In this document: in pieces, positions 22,602 to 31,367 of the stretch | Layout of the letters: every line of letters begins with the position of its first letter | Numbering within the stretch: the first letter of the stretch is position 1 | From: Bdellovibrionales bacterium | GTDB taxonomy: Bacteria; Bdellovibrionota; UBA1018; CAIMNF01 | Direction: 5' to 3' | DNA length: 37,110 bases | Assembly: GCA_947462765.1 (NCBI GenBank) | Contig: CANHQK010000018.1 | Coordinates: 1 to 37,110, forward strand | Notes under the pieces: model-generated | The model's database searches: none | Told to the model about the DNA's origin: nothing | Seen by the model: only the letters and a program-made list of their open reading frames with translations | Position numbers and translations under genes: made by a program

Positions 22602-23552
22602 ATGCCAATGAACGGGAATGACGACAATCGGCAACATTTGCCTGAAAAACGACCGTACTCCACCCATCCCGGACAGCACGCCCGTGTGTCGATGATTGCC
22701 ACACCTATCGGGAATCTAGGCGATCTGGGGGAGCGAGCCTTGCACGCCCTGGAGAACGTGGGTGAGCTCTGGTGCGAGGATACGCGTCATACACAAGCTT
22801 TATTGAATGCGCTCGGAGTCGAAAGAAAACGACTGAAACGGGTGGATCAACACACGTCAGATGGCGAACTCAGAGGGCTTTTGAAACAGGTCGAGGAGGC
22901 CGGTCTCTGGGTGGGGGTGGTTACGGATGCCGGCACACCCGGCCTCAGCGATCCGGGGGCGAGGCTGCTCCAGCTCAGTCCGGAGTTCCCTGGAATCCGT
23001 TTTGAGCCGCTTCCCGGGCCGTCCGCACTGTCCGCATTTGTTTCTGTGGCCGGGCTGACCGGGAATTCTTTCCTGTTTCTTGGATTCTTTCCCAGAAACC
23101 CGACTGAAGCGCTCCAATTGTTAAAGGAATTGAAAGAATCACCGGGAAGTCCCAATTTGATTTTTTTTGAGAGTCCGAATCGGATTCGGGAAACACTGGG
23201 GGTCTTGAGGTCCTTTTGTGAAGGGTTCGATATCCCTCCGGAATTCGTCCTGGCCAAGGAGCTGACCAAGGTCCATGAGACGCTTTATCGGGGAGCCGGC
23301 GCCGGATTTCTGTCGTGGATGGAAGAGCAGGGGTTCGATGAGCGGGGGGAGTGGGTCTTTGCTCTGATTTTACCCAAGGGCAGTGTAAAAAAAGAAAAAG
23401 ACCAATCGGATTGGCGTCTTGTTCTGGAGTGTCTGATGGAGTCGGGAATTTCGGCCAAAACCGCAAGTCAGTTCGTGGTCGGTCGGTTTTCTGTCGCGAA
23501 AAATTTGGCGTACAAGGCGGCTCTCGATTTTCAAAAATTTCAAAAAAAATAA
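22602..23552 (+). CDS. rsmI: 16S rRNA 2'-O-methyltransferase RsmI
   Basis: A 316-residue SAM-dependent tetrapyrrole-methylase-fold enzyme that methylates the ribose of 16S rRNA C1402. Family signatures: MIATPIGNLGDLGERALHAL, CEDTRHTQALL, VTDAGTPGLSDPGARL, PLPGPSALSAFVSVAGL and FFESPNRIRETL, plus a C-terminal helical domain (about 265-316) ending in a Lys/Phe-rich tail. The N-terminus before ATPIGNLGD is about 15 residues longer than usual; the start could instead be an internal ATG or GTG near 22688. TAACCT lies 9 nt before ATG 22602 and no Shine-Dalgarno is present. Confidence 0.93.
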   Translation: MPMNGNDDNRQHLPEKRPYSTHPGQHARVSMIATPIGNLGDLGERALHALENVGELWCEDTRHTQALLNALGVERKRLKRVDQHTSDGELRGLLKQVEEAGLWVGVVTDAGTPGLSDPGARLLQLSPEFPGIRFEPLPGPSALSAFVSVAGLTGNSFLFLGFFPRNPTEALQLLKELKESPGSPNLIFFESPNRIRETLGVLRSFCEGFDIPPEFVLAKELTKVHETLYRGAGAGFLSWMEEQGFDERGEWVFALILPKGSVKKEKDQSDWRLVLECLMESGISAKTASQFVVGRFSVAKNLAYKAALDFQKFQKK

Positions 23553-23561
23553 CTAAAGTGG

Positions 23562-23589
23562 TTGACCCACTTTCGAAGCCTTGTATCCT
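23562..23589 (+). promoter_or_regulatory. Strong promoter of a small RNA
   Basis: TTGACC (23562-23567), 16 nt, TATCCT (23584-23589), the best -35 match among the plus-strand promoters of the window. The predicted start is near 23596. No open reading frame begins at a sensible distance before the terminator at 23684-23729, so an RNA product is expected. Confidence 0.65.
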
Positions 23590-23595
23590 GTTGAT

Positions 23596-23730
23596 GTGTG
23601 GTTGTGGTTGAGTCCAAGGATGGATTCGCAGCGGGAGAAAACAAATTCTCTATAGTCGGCCAAGTCGACTGAAAAAGCTCCACTGCCCCGGTGAGATCAG
23701 GATGATTCCTCACCGGGGCACCGTTTTTTC
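23596..23730 (+). ncRNA. Candidate CsrA-binding small RNA
   Basis: A stretch of about 135 nt bounded by a strong promoter and a strong intrinsic terminator, with no coding frame. Predicted hairpins: (1) GAGTCC/GGATTC (23610-23615 with 23622-23627) holding the hexaloop AAGGAT; (2) a weak GAGA/TCTC stem (23635-23650); (3) AGTCG/CGACT (23654-23670); (4) the terminator stem, whose tip is ATCA-GGA-TGAT. Hairpin 1 (a C-G pair closing an ARGGAU loop) equals the high-affinity CsrA/RsmA binding consensus, and hairpin 4 again exposes AGGAT. This is the style of CsrB/RsmZ-type RNAs that sequester CsrA. Alternatives are a terminated leader (attenuator) of the HD-GYP gene or an unrelated sRNA. csrA is not in the window. 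Confidence 0.5.
23684..23729 (+). terminator. Strong intrinsic terminator
   Basis: TGCCCCGGTGAG (23684-23695) pairs perfectly with CTCACCGGGGCA (23709-23720), and CCG plus six T follow. Four more pairs (ATCA with TGAT) extend the stem, leaving GGA at the tip. Confidence 0.92.
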
Positions 23731-23816
23731 AAGGCTGCACCTTCTTCGATTCCGCCTCATTGCACTCCATTCGCTCCTCCGTCGCGGTACGTGAGTTGTA
23801 TTTAGGGGGGAAGCGT

Positions 23817-23837
23817 CCGTTCAGGATGAACGGGGAG
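23817..23837 (+). promoter_or_regulatory. AGGAT hairpin at the HD-GYP ribosome-binding site
   Basis: CCGTTC (23817-23822) pairs with GAACGG (23828-23833) around the loop AGGAT. The 3' arm runs straight into GGGGAG (23832-23837), the ribosome-binding site 10 nt before ATG 23848. A C-closed AGGAT loop plus a GGGGA ribosome-binding site is the usual arrangement of a CsrA-repressed leader. Binding is inferred from the match alone. Confidence 0.5.
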
Positions 23838-23847
23838 AAGACTTCGC

Positions 23848-24456
23848 ATGGATGCGGAACTCCAGAGACAGATTCTTCCGGTTGAGACGCTTGATTTTGA
23901 GAGTCGCATGCTCGACCTAGTAGCGCGAAAGGATCTCTCGACCCTCGGGCATTCGAATCGTGTGGCAGAACTCACTCGGGAGTGGGCGGAGTTCATGTTG
24001 AGTCGAGGATCATGGGTGGGGGTCGATCCCGCCCGATTGGAGTCGGCCGCACGCTTGCATGACATTGGAAAGGTCATGGTGCCGGATGCAGTGCTGTTGA
24101 AGCCAGGTCCCCTCGATCCCGCTGAAAGGGATTTGATGAATGCCCATGCGGAAGCCGGGTATGAAATGGTGAAGAGCCACAGGAACGAGAGTTACGCGGC
24201 ATTGGCCGTCCGGCATCATCATGAGCGATGGGACGGCCGGGGTTACCCCTTGGGTCTTGAGGGCGATCAGATTCCATTCCAGGCCCAAGTGGTGGCCATT
24301 GCAGATGCCTTCGATGCGATGACCGAGGATCGGGTGTATAGAAAAGGTCGATCTCCTGAAGAAGCTCTGGTCGAGATTGAACGTTGCGCAGGAAGTCATT
24401 TCAGTCCGGTTCGGGTTGCTGAATTCGTGCAATTTATCCATGCGCGGAACGGCTGA
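23848..24456 (+). CDS. Stand-alone HD-GYP c-di-GMP phosphodiesterase
   Basis: A 202-residue protein consisting only of an HD-GYP domain, with no receiver or other sensor part. The HD motif is H71-D72 in LHDIGKV and the GYP motif is HHHERWDGRGYP (about 123-134); the upstream GHSNRVAELT and the later AIADAFDAMTEDRVYRKGRS segments complete the family signature. All metal-binding positions visible at this level are present, so hydrolysis of cyclic di-GMP is expected. It is preceded by a ribosome-binding site embedded next to an AGGAT hairpin and by the candidate CsrA-binding RNA. Post-transcriptional control by CsrA is therefore a reasonable hypothesis. Confidence 0.88.
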   Translation: MDAELQRQILPVETLDFESRMLDLVARKDLSTLGHSNRVAELTREWAEFMLSRGSWVGVDPARLESAARLHDIGKVMVPDAVLLKPGPLDPAERDLMNAHAEAGYEMVKSHRNESYAALAVRHHHERWDGRGYPLGLEGDQIPFQAQVVAIADAFDAMTEDRVYRKGRSPEEALVEIERCAGSHFSPVRVAEFVQFIHARNG

Positions 24457-24478: not shown

Positions 24479-25345
24479 ATGTCCTCTTGGTTCGATGACC
24501 TCAAGACCCCGAAATTCAAAGGGGAACAGCAAAGCCGTGTAGCCAAGATCCCCGAGGGGCTCTGGGGCAAATGTCCTCAGTGCGGGGAGATCATCCAGAC
24601 CAGGCAGTTGCAAGAGAATCTCTCGGTCTGTTCCGAGTGTGGCCACCATCTCCGCGTCACTGCATCCGAGCGTGTGGCTCAGCTGACGGATGTGGATTCA
24701 TTCCGGCCATACGGGGGTGAGTTCAAATCGAACGATCCTCTCCAGTTCGACGATCAGAAGCCCTACAAGGACCGATTGGAACAGGCGATCCGCAATCATA
24801 AACTCAATGATGCTTTTTTGTGCGGAAAGGCGACTCTTGAGGGACTTCCTTTCCACATCGGCGTGTTCGAGTTCAAGTTCATGGGCGGTAGCATGGGGGT
24901 CGCGGTGGGAGAAAAAATCACCCTGACTCTCGAGAGTGCGCTTGAAGAGCGGATTCCTGCTGTGGTCATCTCGGCCAGCGGGGGAGCACGTATGCAAGAG
25001 GGGATCCTTTCCCTCATGCAAATGGCCAAGACTTCAGCGGTGATTCAAAAGATGCGGGATGCGGGAATCCCCTATATTTCCATTCTCACCGATCCGACCA
25101 CCGGTGGTGTTGCGGCTTCGTTTGCGATGCTTGGTGATGTCATCCTCGCCGAGCCGGGAGCATTGATCGGTTTTGCCGGACCGAGAGTGATCGAGCAGAC
25201 CATCCGTCAGAAGCTTCCTGAGGGATTCCAGAGAAGCGAGTTCCTGCTGAAGCACGGATTTGTCGACCGGATCGTTCCCCGCAAGGAGCTCCGTTCGGAA
25301 TTGCATCAGTTGTTCGTGCGTCTGGGAAGCCGGTGTTCCTTCTGA
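24479..25345 (+). CDS. accD: Acetyl-CoA carboxylase carboxyltransferase beta subunit
   Basis: A 288-residue subunit that, with AccA, transfers the carboxyl group from biotin to acetyl-CoA to make malonyl-CoA for fatty acids. The N-terminal zinc ribbon is C32-PQ-C35 and C51-SE-C54. The crotonase-fold core shows FMGGSMGVAVGEKITLTLE, ISASGGARMQEGILSLMQMAKTSA, and LTDPTTGGVAASFAMLGDVILAEPGALIGFAGPRVIEQTI. Length and motifs are normal. A TAATCT box ends 9 nt before ATG 24479 and there is no Shine-Dalgarno. Its end overlaps the lptD start by 13 bases. Confidence 0.97.
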   Translation: MSSWFDDLKTPKFKGEQQSRVAKIPEGLWGKCPQCGEIIQTRQLQENLSVCSECGHHLRVTASERVAQLTDVDSFRPYGGEFKSNDPLQFDDQKPYKDRLEQAIRNHKLNDAFLCGKATLEGLPFHIGVFEFKFMGGSMGVAVGEKITLTLESALEERIPAVVISASGGARMQEGILSLMQMAKTSAVIQKMRDAGIPYISILTDPTTGGVAASFAMLGDVILAEPGALIGFAGPRVIEQTIRQKLPEGFQRSEFLLKHGFVDRIVPRKELRSELHQLFVRLGSRCSF

Positions 25346-31290: not shown

Positions 31291-31367
31291 TGGCGGGAGT
31301 GATGGGACTTGAACCCACGGCCTTCGCCGTGACAGGGCGACGTTGTAACCAACTCAACTACACCCCC
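31291..31367 (-). tRNA. tRNA-Asp (GTC anticodon)
   Basis: A complete 77-nt cloverleaf including encoded CCA. The acceptor GGGGGTG pairs with CACTCCC (one G-T), followed by discriminator G and CCA. The D-stem is GTTG/CAAC, the anticodon stem TCGCC/GGCGA with loop CTGTCAC (GTC), and the T arm GTGGG-TTCAAGT-CCCAT. The discriminator G73 and GUC anticodon both fit aspartate. It stands alone, followed by its own terminator. Confidence 0.98.

Follow-up and report, generated by a model that had tools for sequence, protein, structure and literature searches.

A predicted non-coding RNA between rsmI and an HD-GYP gene

The window, i.e. the whole stretch of 37,110 nucleotides analysed here, carries on its plus strand a gene at positions 22,602 to 23,552 (PF00590), which we take to be rsmI based on synteny and general family features, followed by a gene for an HD-GYP-type protein of 202 aa (23,848–24,456; PF13487, E 5.8e-33) and by accD (24,479–25,345, plus strand; PF01039 and PF17848). 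The HD and GYP motifs of the second protein were read by eye; it comprises the HD part only, while HD-GYP proteins outside the genus may also harbor a GAF domain (L039). The protein is presumed to be a c-di-GMP phosphodiesterase and a target of CsrA.

The gap behind rsmI contains a candidate Csr-type RNA of about 134 nt (23,596–23,729, plus strand), the ends of which are set by a promoter and a T-tract. The promoter (TTGACC-16-TATCCT, 23,562–23,589, plus strand) was identified by a motif scan, and its -35 box begins 10 nt past the stop codon of rsmI. Since shuffled sequences yield 0.8 promoter-like sites compared to the one observed in this region, the promoter is unremarkable if taken alone; it occurs, however, at the same place in relatives: 45 of the 46 homologous loci score 8 or higher out of 12, and 39 have a spacer of 16. 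Six ORFs (24–86 aa) overlap the RNA stretch mechanically, but none on the plus strand spans it, and there are many indels among the family members, from which we conclude that the stretch is non-coding.

The RNA begins with a near-invariant element, GUGUGGUUGUGG (23,596–23,607), which is mostly unpaired in the predicted fold, with the exception of one weak helix, and which belongs to the most conserved stretches of a 40-sequence alignment, although it was partly required by the search pattern. Its conservation has no explanation via CsrA. It is followed by hairpin 1 (23,610–23,627), in which the stem GAGUCC/GGAUUC (23,610–23,615 and 23,622–23,627) presents the hexaloop AAGGAU (23,616–23,621) above a closing C-G pair, a predicted CsrA-type site; the folding program adds one A-U pair, which reduces the loop to AGGA. 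Two further hairpins (23,634–23,670), recognized by folding and alignment, are kept in close relatives only. A second predicted CsrA-type site lies at the tip of the terminator hairpin (23,684–23,720), the perfect 12-bp stem of which (23,684–23,695 and 23,709–23,720) encloses an inner hairpin (23,696–23,706) with the stem AUC/GAU (23,696–23,698 and 23,704–23,706) and the loop AGGAU (23,699–23,703), and which is followed by six T (23,724–23,729). The fold of the RNA reaches −56.3 kcal/mol (z = −4.38), and none of 200 shuffled sequences was as low. Thus, the features claimed in a preliminary description of this locus, i.e. a near-consensus promoter, the lack of a coding frame, a perfect 12-bp terminator, a C-G-closed AAGGAT hexaloop and an AGGAT at the terminator tip, were all found in place.

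The RNA family is conserved within one order of the Bdellovibrionota

No Rfam model, including CsrB, PrrB_RsmZ and related models, reached its gathering score between positions 23,500 and 23,860, and a lax search of the same region returned matches at chance level only, namely PrrB_RsmZ with an E-value of 0.7 in the leader of the HD-GYP gene (23,797–23,860) and three models of eukaryotic or viral RNAs (E-values of 4.6–9.7). The only match at gathering score in the whole window is an ordinary tRNA gene (31,294–31,367, minus strand).

By BLAST, the RNA stretch matched the 12 genomes of the genus, its own included, with a best E-value of at most 1.9e-12. A covariance model extended this to 52 of 368 genomes of the phylum, with matches in 50 of the 55 genomes of the window's order and in none of the three genomes in the remainder of the class; the Infernal search was run with stricter filters, so that weak homologues may escape it. 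In the window, which contributed one of the model's own sequences, the match covers positions 23,596–23,725 (E 7.4e-19). The two matches outside the order (G272 and G209) were weak and, on reading, chance-like, as two GGA hairpins were missing, and a second weak match in G018 was set aside because it likewise lacked the two GGA hairpins.

In one of the five genomes of the order without a match (G013), accD follows rsmI after about 8 nt, i.e. the RNA and the HD-GYP gene are cleanly lost, and csrA and fliW are kept (L218). The other four look unassembled at this locus: in G042, both rsmI and a fragment of accD run into contig ends, in G044 and G050 rsmI was not found and the only carboxyltransferase is a weak paralogue, and in G015, the least certain case, accD is located near a contig start and the rsmI matches are weak or partial. 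In two genomes of other orders (G055 and G058), rsmI is separated from the next ORF by only about 88 and 56 nt, respectively, which is too short to house the RNA, based on mechanical ORF ends. A pattern search returned 42 records, labelled mostly as Bdellovibrionales, Oligoflexia or Bacteriovoracaceae and a few with other names; all 42 titles denote metagenome-assembled genomes and none an isolate, which may be the reason why the RNA went unnoticed.

The 50 RNA-bearing genomes were reduced to 46 loci with distinct cores, and 40 sequences were aligned. An unguided consensus structure of the latter comprises hairpin 1 and the terminator with its inner hairpin, and 11 of its 18 pairs are changed on both sides. 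For a 20-pair structure that we named ourselves, 93.5% of the cells pair, compared to 87.5% in shuffles and 28–50% if the partners are slid by 1–3 columns, and 13 of the 20 pairs show two-sided changes (6.5 in shuffles). Covariation resides mostly in the terminator. In hairpin 1, a single pair covaries and three never vary.

The loops are conserved in both hairpins. Hairpin 1 presents an NGGA loop in all 46 loci (L148 was read by eye), a count that is partly circular since the seed pattern required GGA at this place. No such demand was made on the terminator loop, which the covariance model does include; here, AGGA is found in 45 loci and UGGA in one, and the inner stems differ (GUC/GAC, AUC/GAU, GCC/GGC, GAAAC/GUUUC) around the unchanged AGGA loop. 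Among the other terminators in the fetched loci, 4 of 34 have a GGA loop, three of which are unfiltered family members, leaving 1 of 31. The predicted probability of being unpaired exceeds 0.6 for the GGA of hairpin 1 in 37 of 45 cases and for that of the terminator in 38 of 46, where some rows took a neighbouring GGA, compared to 32 of 133 other GGAs. An RNA contains 3–9 GGA (mean 4.9), most of which, beyond the two conserved sites, are predicted to be paired. A T-tract with at least five T in eight positions is present in 36 of the 46 loci (L045 and L068 were mis-anchored). In one family (f3; L042, L068, L137 and L138), we observed an additional GAAAAGGAUUUUC-like hairpin, which could represent a third CsrA site.

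The conserved hairpins with GGA loops that the preliminary description had anticipated in related genomes are therefore present in 50 of the 55 genomes of the order, with covarying terminator stems and retained loops. We conclude that this is a real, uncatalogued RNA family conserved in one order of uncultured Bdellovibrionota. A promoter and a terminator standing between two genes by chance, with coincidental GGA, would be conceivable for a single locus, where one promoter-like site is expected by chance, but the order-wide conservation and the covariation refute this reading.

Gene order around the RNA

The RNA is preceded by rsmI in all 46 loci. In 42 of them the next gene within 2600 nt is either the HD-GYP gene (32 loci) or accD (10 loci); the remaining four loci are short or masked or reach beyond this range. 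In one of them accD comes at a greater distance, in two a truncated GAF/HD-type ORF follows (the one searched matched Pfam GAF and, below threshold, HD), and the fourth has a truncated ORF of 220 aa. The distance from the RNA to the next gene ranges from 6 to 177 nt if the misfiled L042 is omitted, and four loci (L034, L134, L063 and L150) have a start codon only 6–8 nt past the terminator stem.

CsrA, FliW and predicted CsrA targets

A single csrA match (positions 90,823–90,978 of contig G000:C1) was obtained in the host genome (G000; 2.33 Mb in 97 contigs), with fliW (91,219–91,578) starting about 240 nt after the end of the matching segment. This confirms the presence of csrA on which the preliminary description depended. 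Since csrA was detected in 333 of the 368 genomes of the phylum, comparing its presence with that of the RNA is uninformative. R44 and N55, the contacts to RNA and to FliW, respectively, are kept in all 28 CsrA sequences that were read from 30 loci; the other two loci, which belong to genomes outside the order, were left unparsed. Two genomes (G041 and G043; L139 and L136) encode the RNA with both GGA loops and returned no csrA or fliW match, perhaps due to assembly gaps, as these genomes are 82% complete.

Next to the RNA itself, we searched leaders for hairpins with an NGGA loop and a stem of at least 5 pairs, in counts that comprise related loci and hence no independent events. Such a hairpin is present in 26 of 28 distinct flagellin leaders of the genus (0.88 expected), often with one hairpin over the Shine-Dalgarno sequence (ACCTTCATGGAGGAAGGT-ATG), which is then frequently placed in the loop, and one further upstream (L152–L171), and these leaders are predicted to be CsrA targets. 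In a fixed stretch of 130 nt, 13 of 31 HD-GYP leaders contain a hairpin (0.88 expected) and 18 do not, compared to 1 of 11 stretches with accD as the next gene (0.29 expected; the misfiled L042 is among the 11). A first count, in which some start codons are doubtful, gave 9 of 26 for HD-GYP (0.51 expected), 0 of 28 for accD, 0 of 43 for rsmI and 0 of 9 for accD directly following; the lptD leaders gave 3 of 26 (0.67 expected). In the window, one GGA hairpin, CCGUUCAGGAUGAACGG (23,817–23,833, plus strand), lies 15–31 nt before the start codon of the HD-GYP gene and another, CAUGGAUG (23,843–23,858, plus strand), spans it. These two hairpins and the homologues of the RNA were absent from the preliminary description. 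Because the flagellin leaders and many HD-GYP leaders bear the same GGA hairpins, CsrA probably reads the GGA motif in these bacteria.

Comparison with known systems

The RNA resembles CsrB/CsrC and RsmX/Y/Z in being an intergenic, sigma-70-type unit with its own terminator, and its C-G-closed GGA hairpin loops (AAGGAU and AGGAU) match the SELEX-derived CsrA site RUACARGGAUGU, as given in a 2020 review (PMC7652899). GGA is placed in hairpin loops in both hairpins and in all 46 loci, as in RNAs of the CsrB/RsmZ type; these have about five or more CsrA sites, whereas two are conserved here. According to the same review, E. coli CsrB contains 22 GGA, and descriptions of Csr sRNAs come mainly from Gammaproteobacteria, a class that notably lacks fliW (PMC7652899). 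The present RNA differs from those gammaproteobacterial RNAs in belonging to another phylum, in its site at the terminator tip, in its fixed place behind rsmI and in the presence of fliW. It would thus work like CsrB/RsmZ, while standing outside those Rfam families.

Features of the CsrA-FliW-flagellin system of Bacillus and Campylobacter are also present: csrA adjoins fliW, CsrA has N55 (28 of 28 CsrA sequences read) and a C-terminal extension, and the flagellin leaders have GGA hairpins over the Shine-Dalgarno sequence. In the literature cited here, such systems are described without Csr sRNAs (PMC13407953, PMC7652899), whereas the bacteria studied here have a candidate RNA antagonist as well. 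Within the same phylum, merRNA and the attack-phase sRNAs of Bdellovibrio bacteriovorus are regulatory RNAs as well, and merRNA is linked to c-di-GMP; however, it has a length of 445 nt and contains a c-di-GMP riboswitch (PMC3627812), and the present RNA has no credible homologue outside its order according to the covariance model. The main text of that paper, which lists Bdellovibrio sRNAs, does not mention csr (PMC3627812), and a title and abstract search of the open-access literature found no description of a Csr sRNA of Bdellovibrio or the Bdellovibrionota, or of the present RNA.

Proposed function and alternatives

The promoter, the structure, the GGA loops, the gene order, the presence of csrA and fliW and the leader hairpins are together best explained, as judged from sequence, by a compact CsrA-binding RNA that would antagonize CsrA and that lies upstream of a presumably CsrA-repressed HD-GYP gene. 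We assign a probability of about 60% to sequestration being its main role, whereas binding of CsrA by the RNA as such is likely. The promoter just behind rsmI would give rise to an RNA of about 134 nt ending at its own terminator. Hairpin 1 would offer CsrA its ANGGAN loop and the terminator tip its AGGAN loop, and a single CsrA dimer could span both sites. By binding CsrA, the RNA would keep it off the flagellin and HD-GYP mRNAs with similar hairpins at the Shine-Dalgarno sequence or start codon, so that more RNA would result in more HD-GYP protein. Of the proposal in the preliminary description, a small Csr-type RNA in a non-gammaproteobacterium, the conserved non-coding unit, the GGA loops kept as stems change, csrA and the host stand as observed, while we infer from them that the RNA is transcribed, that it binds and sequesters CsrA and in which direction it acts. 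Several observations count against this reading: GUGUGGUUGUGG has no explanation via CsrA, G041 and G043 have the RNA with neither a csrA nor a fliW match, G013 has csrA and fliW but not the RNA, 18 of 31 HD-GYP leaders lack the hairpin, and lptD leaders show some (3 of 26). In addition, a sponge would be expected to have more than two strong sites, and in some relatives the next gene lies so close that read-through is suggested.

The latter point leads to an alternative that we regard as rather unlikely, in which the element is mainly an attenuator-bearing leader: its promoter would drive the HD-GYP gene and/or accD, the terminator would stop most transcripts, and CsrA or another factor at the GGA hairpins would set read-through or translation in cis, with the short RNA as a by-product. 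HD-GYP or accD follows within 2600 nt in 42 of the 46 loci, the T-tract is weak in some of them (at least five T in eight positions in 36), and the start codons 6–8 nt past the terminator in four loci keep a role as an HD-GYP leader in play, the case that the preliminary description had named as contrary to its own reading. A pure HD-GYP leader is, however, at odds with the 10 loci where accD directly follows the retained RNA, and these loci favor a function in trans. The variable spacing to the next gene also argues against a leader, as does the alignment, in which no conserved antiterminator pairing was seen by eye. The genome G013, finally, in which accD directly follows rsmI and the RNA is gone, indicates that accD does not need the RNA; at the same time, its retained csrA and fliW favor dispensability of the RNA. 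The terminated short form and a read-through message may both be true.

Some E. coli RNAs that act by base pairing, e.g. McaS, are reported to be protected or presented by CsrA. It is quite improbable that the present RNA belongs to this type, with GUGUGGUUGUGG at the 5' end as its seed and CsrA merely protecting or presenting it: this element is indeed among the most conserved stretches and largely unpaired, but the host genome contains 10 copies of its exact complement CCACAACCAC compared to 15 of a backward control, and this search, covering one genome and one exact 10-mer, did not find a set of targets.

Implications

The Bdellovibrionota are known for their predators. Returning to the compact CsrA antagonist, a more far-reaching scenario, which we put forward only tentatively, is that FliW and a Csr-type RNA jointly control CsrA in one cell, that read-through into the HD-GYP gene changes when CsrA occupies the terminator tip, and that the hairpins in the HD-GYP leader are CsrA targets. 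The 2020 review leaves it to future work to show if any species uses FliW and sRNAs in concert (PMC7652899). The RNA family provides a test case for such joint control, with the linked HD-GYP gene as a concrete candidate target; if the scenario is true, the amount of free CsrA would be wired directly to the breakdown of c-di-GMP.
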